Positions 10,427 through 21,958 of a DNA stretch of 22,519 bases are shown piece by piece (the stretch's first letter is position 1; every line of letters starts with the position of its first letter). The position numbers and the translations under genes were made by a program. Source of the DNA: a virus. The stretch is from the IMG/VR virus record IMGVR_UViG_3300049846_000450, positions 1 through 22,519 of that record. One strand, given 5' to 3'. Under the pieces are notes generated by a model, which saw nothing but the letters and a program-made list of their open reading frames with translations, did no database searches and had not been told where the DNA came from.

Positions 10427-10843
10427 ATGAAAACGTATGACCCAAAACAAGTTCAGGTAATCGTAAACGGAGTAGCCCTCCAGGGATTTTCAGAGGATTC
10501 GGTTGTGAAGGTAACGCGTCAAGCCGATGCCTTTACCCAAACAATAGGGGTCGACGGGGAGGGAACTCGGTCTAAGTCGAACGACCACTCGGCGGAGATC
10601 GAGGTAAGCCTAAAGCAATCATCCGAGTCAAACGTAGTTCTTTCTGCACTTGCCAACGCGGACAGAGACAGCAATGCTGGGCTCGTAGCTGTAATGGTGA
10701 AGGACAATAATGGTGATTCCCTTCACATGTGCGAGCAGGCATACATCAAAAAGATGCCCGACAGCGAATACAACAAAACGGCCACGGACCGCGTGTGGAC
10801 GCTCGTAACAGACAAGGTCGTGGATAATATCTCTGGGTATTAA
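10427..10843 (+). CDS. Tail tube protein (DUF3277 family)
   Basis: The 138-residue protein forms stacked hexamers of the inner tail tube. It matches DUF3277: KTYDPKQVQVIVNGVALQGF at the N-terminus, VKVTRQADAFTQTIGVDGEG in the middle, a SN..A.I.V.LKQSS strand, and the C-terminal KMPDSEYNKTATDRVWTLVT. The length and the tube beta-barrel pattern are typical. GGGG just before ATG 10427 is a strong ribosome site. The order sheath, tube, chaperones, tape measure is the standard one. TAATG overlap with the chaperone gene couples translation. Confidence 0.93.
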   Translation: MKTYDPKQVQVIVNGVALQGFSEDSVVKVTRQADAFTQTIGVDGEGTRSKSNDHSAEIEVSLKQSSESNVVLSALANADRDSNAGLVAVMVKDNNGDSLHMCEQAYIKKMPDSEYNKTATDRVWTLVTDKVVDNISGY

Positions 10844-11289
10844 TGAAGCAGTCTGAAAATATAGTCGTCGACGGCAAGTCCTATACAATCAACCCATACA
10901 TAACATCCACCGGGGTAATGCTCTGGTGGGATATCATATCCAAGTTTGGAGAAGGTATCGTGTCCTTTGCCTTTCAGTTGAAGGAGTCGATGGGTGAAAA
11001 GGATTCAGTCCAGAACCTCCTCAAATCGGAGGTCAAACCCGAGCAGATATCGCAGTTGATGGCCGGAGTTAACCGGATGTCACCTGAGCAATTCCAATCG
11101 TTTATATCCCGAGTTCTGGCAAATACTTGTGTCGGAAGCAGATCCGTAATGGAGGACTACGAGACGAGGTTCACAGGGCAGTATAAGCACCTGATGAAGC
11201 TTGTCTTTAAGACCTTGGAGGTTCAGTTTCGGGATTTTTTTACCGCAAGTGGCGCCAACGTAGGCGTCGCGAATTCAAATCCCGCGTAG
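10843..11289 (+). CDS. Tail assembly chaperone, short form (G-type)
   Basis: The 148-residue protein lies between tube and tape-measure genes, where tailed phages encode a chaperone that coats the tape measure during tail assembly and is absent from the virion. The N-terminal IVVDGKSYTINPYITSTGVM is beta, and helical segments follow (GEGIVSFAFQLKESMG, LKSEVKPEQISQLMAGVNRM, FKTLEVQFRDFF), typical of tail assembly chaperones. The zero frame ends with TAG at 11287-11289. Just before that, a T7 run and hairpin allow a -1 shift giving the long form described separately. The position, pair structure and shift signal together make the call firm. Confidence 0.85.
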   Translation: MKQSENIVVDGKSYTINPYITSTGVMLWWDIISKFGEGIVSFAFQLKESMGEKDSVQNLLKSEVKPEQISQLMAGVNRMSPEQFQSFISRVLANTCVGSRSVMEDYETRFTGQYKHLMKLVFKTLEVQFRDFFTASGANVGVANSNPA

Positions 11290-11486
11290 CGCCCTCCAAT
11301 GAGATATGCTGGGAGGTGTGGAGGCTTATATTAGCCGAACCGCCCCTTGGGACACTGGTAGATATTGAAACAAGGTGGTCGTTTAAGGACCTATTAGATG
11401 CAAATGAGGCCCTGGATATTCGCGAGGAGCTGATGGAAGAGGCTCACGAGAACTCTAAGCGGGCCTCTGAAAAGGGTAGACGATGA
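10843..11486 (+). CDS. Tail assembly chaperone, long form made by -1 ribosomal frameshift (GT-type)
   Basis: Shifting -1 at the T7 run (11235-11241) keeps the first 133 residues and adds 81 more from the frame beginning at TAC 11241. The extension runs YRKWRQRRRREFK, then WEVWRLILAEPPLGTLVDIE, FKDLLDANEALDIREELMEE, and stops with TGA at 11484-11486, overlapping the tape-measure ATG. The total is 214 residues. The 'DLLDANEALDIR' helix is the kind seen in second chaperone proteins (lambda T and relatives), which link the chaperone to the tape measure. This frame has no start with a proper ribosome site, so frameshifting explains its existence. Open frame, signal and exact ATGA junction are seen directly; use and efficiency are inferred. 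Confidence 0.85.
11235..11270 (+). promoter_or_regulatory. -1 programmed ribosomal frameshift signal
   Basis: The slippery heptamer T TTT TTT lies in the zero frame at 11235-11241 (codons GAT TTT TTT). Seven bases later a hairpin begins: GTGGCGCC (11249-11256) pairs with GGCGTCGC (11263-11270), eight pairs including two G-U, with a six-base loop. Slippery site, 5-9 base spacer and downstream stem are the three classical parts of a -1 signal. Confidence 0.85.
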
Positions 11487-12892
11487 TCACGGAAGAACTG
11501 ATTGCGGTACTCGGGTTCGAGTTAGACGATAAGAACCTGAAAAAGTTCAAGACTGGAATCGAGCAGGCCGCCACGGGTCTAGCTGGATTTACAGCCACCG
11601 TAGGCGCGTCCGCACTCGCCCTTGGCGCAATGGTCATTACCAGCATCCACACAGCAGAGGGAATCATAAGGGCATCCACAGCTGCCGGACTTGGAGCGGA
11701 GGAGTTCCAGAGATTAGCCAATGCAGCCTCGCTATCTGGAGTGTCATCCGACGAACTAGCTACTAGCCTCAGATTCCTATCTAAGCAGGTATATGAGGCC
11801 ACAACAAACCGAACTAGCGATATAGCAATGGAGTTCAGGAAGTTCGGTGTAGAGTTATTCGGCGCGAATAATCAGGCGAGAACGACAACTGATATTTTAA
11901 AGCAACTTTCCGCCAGGTACTCGACTCTCGATAACGCACAGAAGAAAGCAGCTCTATCACAGATGTTCTTCGGTCGAGGGGCGGGTGCAATAACGAACTT
12001 TTTAAATGAGGGACCCGACAAGATAGCCGAGGCCGCGGCGGAGTTTGATGCGCTGTTTGGTGTCCTATCGACGAAACAGATAACTAATCTTAAAAACCTC
12101 GGAGACGAAATAACTAAAATTCAGGGCTTCTTCTCCGGCTTAAAAAACCAGGTAGCGTCAGAGCTAGCGCCAGCGTTTACCGAAATATTAAAGGACTTTG
12201 TCGGAGTCCTCATTGAGAATAAGGACACTATAAGGGATATTTTCCAATCGATGGTAAAGGGTCTGTCCGCATTTCTAACATTGATAGGAAAGGCATTTAG
12301 ACCAGCCATTTTATTCTTCTTCCTTCTGGCAAAGCATATAGGAGGAGTCGAAGAGGCTGTTGCGCTTCTAACCAGCGGAATGGCTTTGATGTTCAGCGCG
12401 TTCATGCTGGCAGGACTTGCAAAGGTAGCGGCTGCGATACTTTCGATAGGTGGAGCAGCATTACTAGCTCAGTTGGAGTTCGCTGCACTTCCTTTGGCCG
12501 TTGTTGCAGCACTCGGAGCTGTAGCTTTAGCGATAGATGACTTCGTAGCGTGGTGGCAAGGAAGACCGTCAGTTATCGGATATTTACTCGGAGAAGAGGA
12601 TAAAAACGCTGCACAAACTGCCGCCCGACGAAGAAATATTTTTGATAAAGTTACCACTATTGGACCATTAGGACTCGCTGGTAGTATCGGAACTAAACTC
12701 GGCGTCAATCTTGGTGAGAAACTTTATAATGCGGCCTCATCTTATTTTAATCAAAATAACACTATAAATATAACTATCCCTCCAGGAATGAACCCAGAAG
12801 ATGCGGTAAGTGCTGTTGAACGAGGAACGTCGAGCGGTGTGCAACAAGCAACCGATAGAGCGGCTGTAAACGGCGGAGGCATCGAACCTTAA
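11483..12892 (+). CDS. Tail tape measure protein
   Basis: The 469-residue protein sets tail length and passes through the tube during infection. It begins ITEELIAVLGFELDDKNLKK and is helical over most of its length. Residues about 35-50 and 270-350 are hydrophobic, the latter including PAILFFFLLAKHIGG and GLAKVAAAILSIGGAALLAQ, as in tape measures that insert into the inner membrane. The IDDFVAWWQGRPSVIGYLLG segment (351-370) is a conserved feature of this kind of tape measure. The C-terminus is low-complexity. At about 0.15 nm per residue of helix, the tail would be near 70 nm. The start overlaps the chaperone long-form stop as ATGA. No lysozyme or peptidase domain is visible. Confidence 0.88.
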   Translation: MITEELIAVLGFELDDKNLKKFKTGIEQAATGLAGFTATVGASALALGAMVITSIHTAEGIIRASTAAGLGAEEFQRLANAASLSGVSSDELATSLRFLSKQVYEATTNRTSDIAMEFRKFGVELFGANNQARTTTDILKQLSARYSTLDNAQKKAALSQMFFGRGAGAITNFLNEGPDKIAEAAAEFDALFGVLSTKQITNLKNLGDEITKIQGFFSGLKNQVASELAPAFTEILKDFVGVLIENKDTIRDIFQSMVKGLSAFLTLIGKAFRPAILFFFLLAKHIGGVEEAVALLTSGMALMFSAFMLAGLAKVAAAILSIGGAALLAQLEFAALPLAVVAALGAVALAIDDFVAWWQGRPSVIGYLLGEEDKNAAQTAARRRNIFDKVTTIGPLGLAGSIGTKLGVNLGEKLYNAASSYFNQNNTINITIPPGMNPEDAVSAVERGTSSGVQQATDRAAVNGGGIEP

Positions 12893-15925: not shown

Positions 15926-17410
15926 GTGGCGGGTCTCGATGAAAATGGATTTCTGAAAAAGACTTTACTGGAAATAAAGACTGAGGTTGAAGACGACCTT
16001 AAGACTGTCTTTGGACCTTCGATAAACCTACTTCCAGGTAGTGTATTTGCCACTTTAGTAGGAATATTCTCGGAACGAATTTCTGAGGTATGGAACGTAT
16101 CAGAAGAAATTTATAACTCGCTTTCACCAAATACCGCTGTCGGTGTGAGTTTAGATAATGCCGTATCGTTAAACGGAATCACCAGACTACCTGCGGCTAT
16201 GTCTTTGGCGCCTGGAGTTTTTCTATTCGGCACTCCAGGAACAGATGTCCCCTTAGGAACCCAAGTGCATGTCCAGGGAAATACTTCAGCGGTATTCGAA
16301 AGTCTCACAGCAGTTACCCTTGGCGCTGGAGTTAATTGTGAGCAACTAATAGAGTTCTCAGCGGTGCCGGATGCTGGAACATTCACGATAACCTACCGTG
16401 GAGAGACAACAGTACCTATCGCATACAATGCGAATGCGGCGGCCGTGCAGACAGCTTTAAACGACCTATCAAACCTTTCTGGCGTCACCGTTACCGGTAA
16501 TTTCACCTCTGGATTTACTGTAGTATTCGACGGTGATGATGGATTACAGCCTCAATCATTACTAGAAGCAACAAGTTCATTAACCGCATTGATGGTTGCT
16601 GTAGATATAGACATAACCGAAACCGTAGAAGGAGAATCACAGGCGACGGTAGATTTCAGGGCTGTTGAAAATGGAGTAGTTGACGCTCCACTGTATACAC
16701 TGACAGAGATAGACACTCCAGTTTCAGGACTTGATAGAGTTTGGAATACAGAAGAAACAGTTCTAGGAAGAGATATTGAAACCGACTCCGAGTTAAGAAT
16801 TAGAAGAGCATCAAGTATACAAGTCGCTGGAAATGCCACCGTTGAAGCAATTCGTTCTAAGATTTTGAATATTCCAGGAGTTTCAGCAGCATTTGTTTTT
16901 GAGAACGATACACTCGCCGTCGATATTGATGGTCGTCCTGCAAAGAGTTTTGAGGTGGTCGTTCAGGGTGGAGATAATCAACTCATAGCTGATACAATTT
17001 GGGAATCTAAGCCAGCCGGAATAAAAACTTACGGGTCATCGTTCGAGACGGTAGTAGATACACAAGGCATATCGCACGACATGTACTTTTCACGACCTAC
17101 CGAAGTTCCAATATACGTTTCGATTGACCTCACGGTTGATGGCGCATTCCCGGAAGATGGCCCAGGACTAGCCCAGCAAGCAATCCTAGATTACGGCCTA
17201 TCACTTAATATCGGTGATGACGTGGTCGTTTACCCAAGGTTGGTCGCATCGTTGGATTCAATCCCTGGAATAATAGATATGATTATCAGGATAGATGATT
17301 CGGCTGTATCGACGACGCCGGAAGACCCTGCGGTAGATGACAACGTCGTAATAGCTGCTTACGCAAGGGCGACATTCTCGGCACCTAACACGAATATAAA
17401 TATCTTATGA
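15926..17410 (+). CDS. Baseplate wedge protein, J/gp47-like, with an inserted beta module
   Basis: The 494-residue protein is a baseplate arm (T4 gp6, P2 J, Mu gp47 family) that transmits the contraction signal. The N-terminus GLDENGFLKKTLLEIKTEVE followed by FGPSINLLPGSVFATLVGIF, and LSPNTAVGVSLDNAVSLNGI, are typical. After the insertion come TLTEIDTPVSGLDRVWNTEE and GRDIETDSELRIRRASSIQV, the 'G.D.EsD..lR.R' block, then a C-terminal domain with ILDYGLSLNIGDDVVVYPRL. Residues about 138-238 are an extra module, CEQLIEFSAVPDAGTFTITY through VTVTGNFTSGFTVVF, shared with the protein at 1599-2528. Start GTG 15926 follows GGGGG at 15916-15920. Confidence 0.9.
   Translation: MAGLDENGFLKKTLLEIKTEVEDDLKTVFGPSINLLPGSVFATLVGIFSERISEVWNVSEEIYNSLSPNTAVGVSLDNAVSLNGITRLPAAMSLAPGVFLFGTPGTDVPLGTQVHVQGNTSAVFESLTAVTLGAGVNCEQLIEFSAVPDAGTFTITYRGETTVPIAYNANAAAVQTALNDLSNLSGVTVTGNFTSGFTVVFDGDDGLQPQSLLEATSSLTALMVAVDIDITETVEGESQATVDFRAVENGVVDAPLYTLTEIDTPVSGLDRVWNTEETVLGRDIETDSELRIRRASSIQVAGNATVEAIRSKILNIPGVSAAFVFENDTLAVDIDGRPAKSFEVVVQGGDNQLIADTIWESKPAGIKTYGSSFETVVDTQGISHDMYFSRPTEVPIYVSIDLTVDGAFPEDGPGLAQQAILDYGLSLNIGDDVVVYPRLVASLDSIPGIIDMIIRIDDSAVSTTPEDPAVDDNVVIAAYARATFSAPNTNINIL
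16337..16639 (+). other. Beta module inserted in the J-like protein, shared with the gene at 1599
   Basis: This coding segment interrupts the baseplate-J fold between FESLTAVTL and the ATVDFRAVENGVVDAPLYTL strand. Its sequence aligns with both internal modules of the protein at 1599-2528 (1758-2027 and 2034-2348): (V/E)Q.I.FS.VP.aGtf...Y, then VQTALNDL, then VTVTGNFTSGFTVVF. Length is about 100 residues, fitting an exposed immunoglobulin-like or similar beta domain. Confidence 0.75.
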
Positions 17411-18669: not shown

Positions 18670-20604
18670 ATGCCATCGATTAAGGGAACGGCGGCGACCG
18701 CATACCGGAACACGAAGTTCAAGAATACCAGACTCGGTACTCCTATGTTCGGTCGCGCACGCGACGGAGATATCGCTTCCGTAACTGTAAGTAGAAATCT
18801 GAATTCTGTCAGGATTGGTTCCGGTCTAACAAGAACCGTCGATATGGCAGCGGCCTCCGTCACGGCAATAGCAGGATTGAACCTAACTGTGACGATGAGG
18901 GCCGGAGTTATTACTGACTTTAAATCCGGCGATATATGTCTCGTTATTAATCAGCAGGGCGATTCGACAAATAACTCGAACGTCGGAAATTGGGAGCTCG
19001 TAAAGTTAACAGCCGACGGAACTGGAAGCACGATTGCAATCGACCAAACGCTGACAAAAGTTTACGGCATATCTGACAATCTGAATCTAACCGGACAGAA
19101 GATAACCATATATCGAATGCCTGAGTTCGGCGACCTACCGATAGGAAACGGCGGTACAATAACCTGCACTTCCTGGAACGGTACATGGGGTGGAGTTCTC
19201 GCATTCTTCGTCGGTAAGACACTTACATGTTCTGGTACTGGTGTCGTGTCAACTGCCGGTGCTGGATATCGCGGTGGTGCGGTTGCTGGTGGTGCTGGAG
19301 AGGGATACGGCGATAATTACGGATTTCAACAGACGACGAATAATTTTGGTGGTGGTGGAGGAGGAAGAAATAACAGTCCAATATCCGGTGGAGTAGGTGG
19401 CGCCGGATATGATTCCCCAGCCCCAAATCCAGCTCCATTTACAAGGGCAAGTTCGGCTGGAGGTGGTTCGGGTGGAGCTGGCGGTGGAGCAGGCGGTGGA
19501 GGAGGACACGGAAATACGGGAGGTACGAGCAGCGAAGGGAAGCGCGGTGGCGGTGGCGGCGGAGCGAACAATCACCTAACGAATAATACTAATCCAGGCG
19601 GCTATGGGGGTGGTGGAAATACACCTGGTCCCGGTGGCGCCGGTGAACCTTCGGAAACTGGTTCACCCACAAATAATTTTTGGCCCGCTGGTGGAGCAGG
19701 CGGTTCAAGCGGAAGCATTCCCCCAGGTACATATTCAGGTGGGGCACCATACGGGGCAGCAAATATTGATAAATTATTTATGGGCGGCGGCGGTGGTGCT
19801 ACTGGCTCAGGAGGGAATGGAGCAGCTGGAGGAGCCGGAGGAGATGCAAGGCCTGCTCTAAGTTTCGCCGGAGGAGCTGGAGGAGGAGGCGGCGGTGCTG
19901 GTGGAGGCTACGGAACTGCCTCCGCTGGATCAGGCGGAGCCGGTGGCCCTAGTTTAACTCCAGATTCTGGACTTTCTGGTCAACCTGGTTCTGCAGGAAC
20001 GGCGACACCTTCATCAAGCATTAATGGTGCATCCGGTGGTGGTATTATTCTCATTTACGCCAAAACACTATCAACAGTGACTTTGAGAATAAATGGACAC
20101 GATGGAACATCAGGTAAGACTGGTGGCGTTGGTGGTCTTAGCGGTTACGCTAGGCTCACATATCCACAGACACCTCCAACGGTAGCTGGTGGCGGGGGAG
20201 GAGCTGGTGCTGGTAGCGGTGGCTCTGGAGGCGGGGCCGGTGGAACGTGTTTGATTTGGTGTAAGGAGCATACAACAACCACAGTTCTAGGTGCGGGTGG
20301 TACTGGCGGGACCTTTGGTGCTGGTGGAGCCGGTGGTGGGTCATCCGAGACATTTAATACGAATGCTGGCGGAAGTGCTGGTAATCCTGGTAATCCTGGG
20401 TCTATATCACCAACAAAGAATGTTGCAGGCTCTGGAGCTGGTGGTTCCCCTGGCGTTGCTGGTGGAAATGGTGCGGGTGGTAGAGTGAAAATTGTTTCTC
20501 TTCTTACGAATGGATCACTCACATCTCAAACGCCTGACGGCCCATCACCTACTTTAGCGCCAGCTGGACCAATAGCAGGAACTGGATATAAGGCTGCACT
20601 CTAA
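18670..20604 (+). CDS. Glycine-rich tail fibre / adhesin
   Basis: The 644-residue protein is probably a receptor-binding fibre. Residues 1-150 form a beta domain ending TGQKITIYRMPEFGDLPIGN. Residues about 160-205 (TCTSWNGTWGGVLAFFVGKT, then GTGVVSTAGAGYRGG) match the 'W.G..GG.laf......vsG.i...G.G.RGG' lead-in found before Gly-rich arrays. From about 200 to 605 runs of GG and GGG alternate with short beta strands such as GGGIILIYAK and GGTCLIWCKEH, with scattered NPG and PPG. This layout recalls the polyglycine-II Gly-rich adhesin domains known from T-even gp38. The last 40 residues are Pro/Thr-rich. GAGG eight bases upstream supports ATG 18670. Two cysteines bracket the CLIWC strand. Confidence 0.8.
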   Translation: MPSIKGTAATAYRNTKFKNTRLGTPMFGRARDGDIASVTVSRNLNSVRIGSGLTRTVDMAAASVTAIAGLNLTVTMRAGVITDFKSGDICLVINQQGDSTNNSNVGNWELVKLTADGTGSTIAIDQTLTKVYGISDNLNLTGQKITIYRMPEFGDLPIGNGGTITCTSWNGTWGGVLAFFVGKTLTCSGTGVVSTAGAGYRGGAVAGGAGEGYGDNYGFQQTTNNFGGGGGGRNNSPISGGVGGAGYDSPAPNPAPFTRASSAGGGSGGAGGGAGGGGGHGNTGGTSSEGKRGGGGGGANNHLTNNTNPGGYGGGGNTPGPGGAGEPSETGSPTNNFWPAGGAGGSSGSIPPGTYSGGAPYGAANIDKLFMGGGGGATGSGGNGAAGGAGGDARPALSFAGGAGGGGGGAGGGYGTASAGSGGAGGPSLTPDSGLSGQPGSAGTATPSSSINGASGGGIILIYAKTLSTVTLRINGHDGTSGKTGGVGGLSGYARLTYPQTPPTVAGGGGGAGAGSGGSGGGAGGTCLIWCKEHTTTTVLGAGGTGGTFGAGGAGGGSSETFNTNAGGSAGNPGNPGSISPTKNVAGSGAGGSPGVAGGNGAGGRVKIVSLLTNGSLTSQTPDGPSPTLAPAGPIAGTGYKAAL

Positions 20605-20613
20605 GGAGACTTC

Positions 20614-20847
20614 ATGGATACGTTGAAAGATGAACTTGTTACTCTTTTGGATTCATATCAGGCAGAAACTGACTCAGCGGCGAAGCTAGTCATTCTCGAA
20701 AACGCTATCGCAAAGGCATACGAGATAAGAGATGCGATAGTTTCTGAGACCGAAACAAATAACACGACAATCACCGCACTCGAGTCTGCGAAGATTACAT
20801 TATCGTCACCTACAGATATGACCGATGTACTAGCTCTGTATTCCTAA
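20614..20847 (+). CDS. Small helical protein after the fibre gene
   Basis: The 77-residue protein is predicted to be mostly two amphipathic helices (LKDELVTLLDSYQAETDSAA, then KLVILENAIAKAYEIRDAIV) and a short tail (PTDMTDVLALYS). AAGGAG right before ATG 20614 and the nine-base gap after the fibre stop show an operon. Its size and position would fit a fibre-folding chaperone or a small fibre-linked protein, but there is no motif to prove it. It is the last plus-strand gene of the structural block, and its TAA overlaps the stop of the convergent gene on the other strand. Confidence 0.68.
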   Translation: MDTLKDELVTLLDSYQAETDSAAKLVILENAIAKAYEIRDAIVSETETNNTTITALESAKITLSSPTDMTDVLALYS

Positions 20848-21431
20848 CAGAACGGCGGTCCTGTAACCCAAAACACCAATGACCATCTATTGCCCTTGGT
20901 GACGGTGTGAACACGGTGAGTTTTGTAGGACGGAAATAGAATCAGCGTTCCCATTTTGAGTTCACTTGGTTGACCCAATCGCGCAAACTCAAACTTACCG
21001 CCAGAGAAGTCTTTATTGAGTAATACCACTCCTGATAACTTACGGTGAGAGAACCCAGGTTTATTTGAGTTATCTTCATGCCAATCATAGTGACCTTTTA
21101 ATTTTCCACCTGGATAGTGCGTAAGTTGTAGTGCCTCATTTAGTCCAGCCAAGTGAAATTTCCAGAACCGTGAGTTGTGCTCGAATACGGTATTGGCCAG
21201 TCTCTCGAATATCCAATTGTATTCGGATTGCCATTCAATCCAATATAAATTCGACATCCTTTTTGTTTTATCGACGATAGCACCGTCGATAGTTGAGATA
21301 TGTCCATCGCGCTTCTTTATATTCTTACTAATGGAAATTACCTGTTTACACTCCTCTGTTGAAAAAATCCCATCCTGATAACTATATTCTGCGAACTCCG
21401 TGTCGTTTGGTTGGTTGATTACGTACGGCAC
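20844..21431 (-). CDS. 2-oxoglutarate/Fe(II)-dependent oxygenase (PiuC/prolyl-hydroxylase-like)
   Basis: From GTG at 21431 this encodes 195 residues. The jelly-roll core contains LQLTHYPGGKLKGHYDWHED with the metal motif His-x-Asp (H114/D116; H118/D120 is an alternative pair). Then come KLSGVVLLNKDFSGGKFEF and GTLILFPSYKTHRVHTVTKG followed by NRWSLVFW, giving the distal metal His (H172) and the 2-oxoglutarate-binding Arg (R182). Family members hydroxylate side chains or small molecules using O2 and 2-oxoglutarate; the substrate is unknown. A 214-residue form from ATG 21488 is open, but its first 19 residues lie over the preceding gene. GTG 21431 overlaps that gene's TAG by one base and has GGGGAG nine bases before it, so it is preferred. 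Confidence 0.85.
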   Translation of the reverse strand: MPYVINQPNDTEFAEYSYQDGIFSTEECKQVISISKNIKKRDGHISTIDGAIVDKTKRMSNLYWIEWQSEYNWIFERLANTVFEHNSRFWKFHLAGLNEALQLTHYPGGKLKGHYDWHEDNSNKPGFSHRKLSGVVLLNKDFSGGKFEFARLGQPSELKMGTLILFPSYKTHRVHTVTKGNRWSLVFWVTGPPFC

Positions 21432-21958
21432 TACTCTAATCTCCCCATCCAAGTTGTAGGAACGAAATGGAAGAACGCGAGTGTGCAATAAGTTGCTGGA
21501 GAATCTTCCCTCATTGGTTTTCTATAGTGAGGGTCATTCGTGCCTGAATATAGAACTGCTTCGCCATCGCAAATAGAAATCTTTTTATCATTGATATATA
21601 TTGGCCAAATTCCATCAGATTCAATTGAGAGGTCGACTGTGAACTGACATTGTGGTCTATCGGTGTGGAGAGGGCAAACCCCATGTGGTCCGTACATCGA
21701 TAGAAAAACGTAACTTGGTTTTACTGGCTCTCCAACCATCTCTGAAACTTTTTGAATGAAGGATGGCTCGTGGTGGTAATCGACAAGGACTGGAAGGTTG
21801 TGCCACTGCCATCTATTGAACTTACAAGTTTCGTTTTCTTCCTCCGCATCGTGGTACGGTATTCCAGGATAATCGAATGCCCTGCGTATCTCTTTAGTAT
21901 GAGTTTTTATGTCGTGGAATTCTAGAACATCGAATGGTTTAAAAATTATTGGTTCCAT
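21431..21958 (-). CDS. Second 2-oxoglutarate/Fe(II)-dependent oxygenase-like protein
   Basis: The 175-residue protein has a double-stranded beta-helix pattern. SYVFLSMYGPHGVCPLHTDR places H98-x-D100, then come CQFTVDLSIESDGIWPIYIN, a GEAVLYSGTNDPHYRKP block with distal His144 and nearby Arg, and a closing TLAFFHFVP strand. This is the 'HxD...WPl.v...GdavlY.G....H.R' layout of an oxygenase family often found in viruses and bacteria; I cannot name the substrate. It differs clearly from its neighbour, so the pair is not a simple duplication. ATG 21958 is preceded on the minus strand by AGGA at seven bases. It is the first gene of a two-gene minus-strand operon. Confidence 0.8.
   Translation of the reverse strand: MEPIIFKPFDVLEFHDIKTHTKEIRRAFDYPGIPYHDAEEENETCKFNRWQWHNLPVLVDYHHEPSFIQKVSEMVGEPVKPSYVFLSMYGPHGVCPLHTDRPQCQFTVDLSIESDGIWPIYINDKKISICDGEAVLYSGTNDPHYRKPMREDSPATYCTLAFFHFVPTTWMGRLE

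Follow-up and report, generated by a model that had tools for sequence, protein, structure and literature searches.

The window analysed here is the whole of a 22,519-base virus record (IMG/VR IMGVR_UViG_3300049846_000450), in which a tail assembly chaperone gene lies directly upstream of a tape-measure gene. At a probability of about 0.93, we read its sequence as encoding a programmed −1 ribosomal frameshift at a T_TTT_TTT heptamer that would yield a short and a long form of the chaperone. The zero-frame open reading frame (ORF; 10843-11289) terminates with TAG, the −1 frame is open over 11211-11486, and the run of seven T reads GA(T TTT TTT)ACC, that is, T_TTT_TTT in the −1 slip register. 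With the 81-residue extension, the predicted long form has 214 residues. The elements concerned are:

10843..11289, + strand: zero-frame tail assembly chaperone, short form, 148 residues; matches PF21822 and PHROG 1613
11217..11221, + strand: Shine-Dalgarno (SD)-like GGAGG, 13 nt before the heptamer; putative upstream stimulator, conserved in the related contigs L001 and L002
11235..11241, + strand: slippery heptamer T_TTT_TTT, encoding Phe-Phe of RDFF; canonical X_XXY_YYZ at the homologous column in the family
11241..11486, + strand: −1 frame extension, 81 residues (YRKW...EKGRR), TGA at 11484-11486; open frame, matches PHROG 4625
11249..11270, + strand: stem-loop of 8 pairs (11249-11256 with 11263-11270), 6-nt loop, 7-nt spacer
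11483..12892, + strand: tape-measure gene; PHROG 8125, tail length tape measure, E 3.5e-41
11483..11486, + strand: ATGA overlap of the tape-measure start codon and the extension stop codon

An earlier reading of this DNA (the original prediction) had described the zero-frame stop, the T7 run, the open −1 frame, the overlap with the tape-measure ATG, an eight-pair hairpin seven bases past the heptamer and an extension of 81 codons, and all of these are present. Absent from that description is GGAGG at 11217-11221, which is a third element of the putative signal. Counting both strands, T7 occurs just twice in the window, fewer times than expected by chance. Its rating as less common than the GGGAAAG of lambda was mistaken: T_TTT_TTN is the commonest motif in the family described below and is also the P2 type (PMC3931495).

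Two IMG/VR contigs, L001 and L002, have chaperones 63-66% identical to that of the window, carry T8 in the same register, and share the window's stem, zero-frame stop position and extension. Counted past the chaperone stop, the window differs from L001 at 15, 5 and 39 sites in −1 frame positions 1, 2 and 3 (39 of 59 at the third), corresponding in that frame to 28 synonymous and 16 non-synonymous codons; the other two frames hold 7-9 stops there and show almost no synonymous changes. This substitution pattern indicates coding selection on the −1 frame extension. Changes in the overlap region likewise favour third positions of the −1 frame; of the two readings there, it is thus the zero-frame tail that appears dispensable.

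More distant relatives were found with the extension as a tblastn query. The hits, 34-42% identical, include Erebus, Pam3 and Rhizobium phages. Each has the extension in the −1 frame of the chaperone gene, and the homologous (G)DFF codons read T_TTT_TTT or T_TTT_TTC; Roomu-2 carries G_GTT_TTT. The window chaperone gave no tblastn match to phage records, making the extension the better probe. In most records the extension is unannotated or a short hypothetical ORF; the Pam3, RHEph04 and RHph_I65 records leave the false annotation gap that had been predicted.

For a wider survey, loci were gathered by similarity of the extension protein alone, by scanning IMG/VR with an extension profile and adding named phages. 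This first set comprised 94 loci with a complete chaperone ORF, 80 of them non-redundant, besides two truncated contigs without a chaperone ORF. Bacterial genomes and additional viral scans supplied a second set of 109 loci whose chaperone was recognised by a hidden Markov model, including a replication subset of 58 independent loci with <90% identity to the first set. Related loci were treated as independent, and the P values below are therefore indicative only. At 94/94 and 109/109 loci the extension is in frame −1 relative to the chaperone ORF, and no in-frame fusion or opposite frame was seen among them. A canonical X_XXY_YYZ heptamer occupies the homologous codons at 128 of 138 non-redundant loci (73/80 in the first set, counting heptamers within two codons of the aligned column, and 55/58 in replication), against a background of 0.42% at other codons in the same register of the same chaperone genes. 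The comparison with homologues that the original prediction had proposed for the slippery run thus bore it out, mostly as T_TTT_TTN.

The heptamer varies in identity and in the residues it encodes, yet remains slippery. In the first set the types are T_TTT_TTC (37), T_TTT_TTT (15), T_TTT_TTA (10), T_TTT_TTG (1), G_GGA_AAG/A (5), C_CCT_TTN (4) and A_AAT_TTT (1). Replacement of Phe-Phe by Gly-Lys with the heptamer still slippery argues for selection on slipping rather than on residues. Where the first codon encodes Phe, TTT outnumbers TTC by 68:1 (first set) and 50:0 (replication), compared with 189:351 and 173:203 elsewhere. As an observation in its own right, five loci (L012 (pOW20-A), L064, L078, L133 and L165) have a −1 extension but neither a canonical heptamer at the conserved column nor G_GTT_TTT.

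Upstream of the heptamer, SD-like pairing is stronger than in synonymous randomisations matched for codon usage, by −2.0 kcal/mol in the first set (p 2e-15) and −2.3 kcal/mol in the replication set (p 2e-12), with controls at about +0.2 in both. The upstream Glu codons are GAG rather than GAA by 46:11 and 36:1, compared with 372:352 and 206:287 elsewhere. The SD criterion of PMC4066793 picks out 57/80 and 34/55 loci (controls, 17-18%). Gaps to the heptamer cluster at 11 and 13 nt; that of the window, 13 nt, lies within the 6-17 nt range that PMC4066793 used. No start codon in the extension frame follows the family's SD-like sequences at 4-12 nt, indicating that they do not serve as ribosome-binding sites for the extension.

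The stem downstream of the window's heptamer has a stability of −14.5 kcal/mol (z −2.64), equalled by 2/200 shuffles, although over a 50-nt stretch z drops to −1.2. A search of Rfam gave no match. The 7-nt spacer of the stem falls within the 5-9 nt typical of dnaX-type stem-loops. Among the relatives, stems of at least six pairs that begin 5-8 nt after the heptamer, with a peak at 7, occur at 32/80 loci against 10.4 expected, and at 17/55 replication loci against 6.9 expected (maximum in 200 shuffles, 14).

Could the frameshift be real and the SD-like element and stem nevertheless be non-stimulating by-products of protein sequence and composition? GGAGG can be accommodated by the protein motifs LEV and L-K/R/Q-E, and many loci have no stem. 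However, the SD excess outlasts codon randomisation in two sets, GAG is nearly fixed, and the SD-like sequence leads to no suitably spaced start. On this evidence we regard a by-product origin as unlikely, though it is the most probable of the alternatives considered.

The long T runs raise the possibility of transcriptional slippage, in which RNA polymerase would insert a U at the run, so that the mRNA itself carried the −1 frame. The T7 of the window and the T8 of L001 and L002 are homopolymers of a kind known to slip, and the same protein would result. Against this, most family members have six T only (T_TTT_TTC, T_TTT_TTA), and G_GGA_AAG, C_CCT_TTT and A_AAT_TTT keep the same frame without a long run; the phase-specific register, the SD-like element and a stem at fixed distance are, moreover, ribosomal features. 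We judge slippage very improbable.

Independent translation of the extension as a separate gene, or by reinitiation past the chaperone stop, seems more improbable still. A short separate ORF is annotated at this place in Erebus, RHph_N17 and KPP10, and an in-frame GTG exists in the window at 11316. However, this GTG is abutted by GGGAGG, with no spaced SD, and a start there would cut the conserved core; the only other in-frame start codon within the extension, ATG at 11433, would yield just 17 residues. The claim that the extension lacks a usable start thus stands, and it extends to most of the family: 126/135 extensions lack any start codon preceded by an SD-like sequence ahead of the conserved core, and in 70 there is not a single start codon. 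The homologues do not bear out the conditions named beforehand as contradicting a frameshift, namely a stop in the −1 frame, or a well-spaced independent start with no conserved slippery run. A separate gene would also leave unexplained why the heptamer column and the linker, upstream of any start, are conserved. Finally, homopolymers are prone to error, but a sequencing or assembly error that split one continuous gene in the T run can hardly account for the same split in >130 non-redundant loci, some from isolate genomes and some with heptamers that are not homopolymers. Slippage, a separate gene and assembly error were all rejected on these heptamer, start-codon and split data.

The programmed frameshift is thus the reading we prefer, and several points weigh against it. 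U_UUU_UUU is less shift-prone than A_AAA_AAG in Escherichia coli (PMC5009743), and the efficiency may therefore be low. Ten of the 138 loci have no canonical heptamer; at least five of these carry G_GTT_TTT, a published variant. The stem, whose comparison in homologues had been proposed as a check, shows the enrichment at 5-8 nt spacing noted above and is clear in the window lineage, yet it is found in only about 49 of the 135 loci tested. The anti-SD and tRNA-Phe of the host are assumed to be standard, and the frameshift product is a prediction from sequence.

The following account of the shift and its efficiency, of what the stimulators do and of how the proteins act is inferred. Most ribosomes would translate 10843-11289 into the 148-residue short chaperone. 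A minority would hold tRNA-Phe in the P site and in the A site on arriving at T_TTT_TTT, where the upstream GGAGG, paired with 16S rRNA, and the stem that begins 7 nt further on would slow them. The two tRNAs would then shift back by one base and pair anew with UUU UUU, and the ribosome would go on in the −1 frame to 11484. In the 214-residue product the chaperone would be followed by a flexible linker and then by the additional helical domain. If gpG and gpGT of lambda are a guide, the tape-measure protein would be coated by the short part, and tail tube subunits would be brought in by the additional domain.

Profile searches support the chaperone assignment. The window chaperone matches Pfam PF21822 (Phage_TAC_15; E 8e-12, 46.2 bits, cut-off 22) and PHROG 1613 (tail assembly chaperone; E 5e-10), and PF21822 also recognises each of the 77 chaperones in the alignment (E up to 0.001). 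The AlphaFold model of the window chaperone has a pLDDT of 79. Among solved structures, only PDB 5ir0, ORF19 of a PICI-like element of Vibrio cholerae, is weakly similar to it (sequence E 0.025; fold TM 0.69 by target, E 0.8); this weak likeness hints that a phage satellite may encode a tail-chaperone-like protein.

The window extension matches PHROG 4625 (E 1.5e-4) and scores 12.8 bits against PF21829 (DUF6889), below the cut-off of 23.9. Among the relatives' extensions, 40/82 match DUF6889 at E up to 0.01 (best 7e-9, 35.7 bits) and 68/82 match PHROG 4364; all three families are labelled function unknown. The most natural reading of DUF6889 and PHROG 4364/4625 is that they represent the C-terminal domain of chaperones made by frameshifting. 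The AlphaFold model of the extension (pLDDT 85) is loose over residues 1-22 and then forms three helices at high confidence, with a W-R...DxxDAxEALD motif in the helical part. A PDB fold search returned no solved structure resembling it. The predicted architecture fits a flexible linker followed by an interaction domain.

The two-form mechanism is already known, established for lambda and P2 (PMC5009743; PMC3931495). In lambda, as in the window, a two-form chaperone lies upstream of the tape measure with a −1 extension that has no start of its own; lambda uses G_GGA_AAG where the window has T_TTT_TTT, and six first-set relatives (L037, L045, L047, L076, L085 and L093) have G_GGA_AAR, the lambda type, at the equivalent place. 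In P2 (gpE/E+E') and P2-like phages the extension overlaps the start of the next gene, as in the window (Christie 2002, as cited in PMC3931495); the P2 heptamer is T_TTT_TTG, and protein homology to P2 was neither sought nor found. In 2025, work with related phages of Pseudomonas argued for a homologous −1 frameshift with GTTTTT in Vandenendeviridae and Andersonviridae (PMC12846349). According to that text, Pakpunavirus Adele and other members encode TAC-N/TAC-NC at a homologous locus, with the chaperone upstream of the tape measure, the C-terminal part in the −1 frame and, as in the window's relatives, the extension often annotated as a hypothetical gene or a gap. PHROG 4625 covers both kinds of extension. 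The Adele-type slip motif is G_GTT_TTT, compared with T_TTT_TTN in the window family, and the passages of PMC12846349 consulted mention no SD-like element; the window phage is far from the genera of both families. The three-part signal resembles that of E. coli dnaX, which also combines an upstream SD-like sequence, a heptamer and a downstream stem-loop (PMC3711429). The dnaX heptamer is A_AAA_AAG, and its shift shortens the protein whereas that of the window would lengthen it; stimulation in the window is putative.

Likely additions to the known mechanism are the SD-like element, the exchange of heptamers at a single position and the role assigned to DUF6889. For tail chaperones, no description of such an SD element was found in the open-access literature consulted. 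On balance we favour a lineage-wide TAC_15/DUF6889 frameshift driven by a conserved dnaX-like three-part signal, in which an SD would be selected 11 or 13 nt before a swappable heptamer and DUF6889 and PHROG 4364/4625 would form a C-terminal domain made only by frameshifting. A family of unknown function would thereby become a defined part of a frameshifted tail chaperone, providing a simple rule for mending the many phage annotations that omit the extension domain or list it as a gene of its own. Should the SD-like element prove functional, these phages would tune the control of tail length with a signal of the kind found in bacterial dnaX, and the swapped heptamers at one site offer a natural series for studies of slip-site evolution.

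The window derives from a contractile-tailed phage with the gene order portal, capsid, sheath (DUF3383), tube, chaperone, tape measure, Dit-like, hub and baseplate J. The tail tube gene (10427-10843) is the upstream neighbour of the chaperone gene, and the order sheath, tube, chaperone, tape measure gives the chaperone ORF the placement of a G/GT-type gene. The identical −1 overlap with the tape-measure start is present in 30 of the 102 loci with an assignable tape-measure start; the ATGA at 11483-11486 could couple tape-measure translation to ribosomes that have already frameshifted. At the tail-fibre position lies a 644-residue glycine-rich protein (18670-20604) with no match in Pfam or PHROG. 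A 2OG-Fe(II) oxygenase gene (20844-21488, − strand; PF13640, E 3e-14) stands at the end of the structural cluster, adjoined by another minus-strand ORF (21431-21958), which matches nothing in Pfam. A domain of about 80 residues (VPDAGT...TVTG.F..GFTV) is present in two copies in a 309-residue protein after the portal gene (1599-2528) and once more, as an apparent insertion near residues 133-214, in the baseplate J protein (15926-17410; BLASTP E 1e-10).
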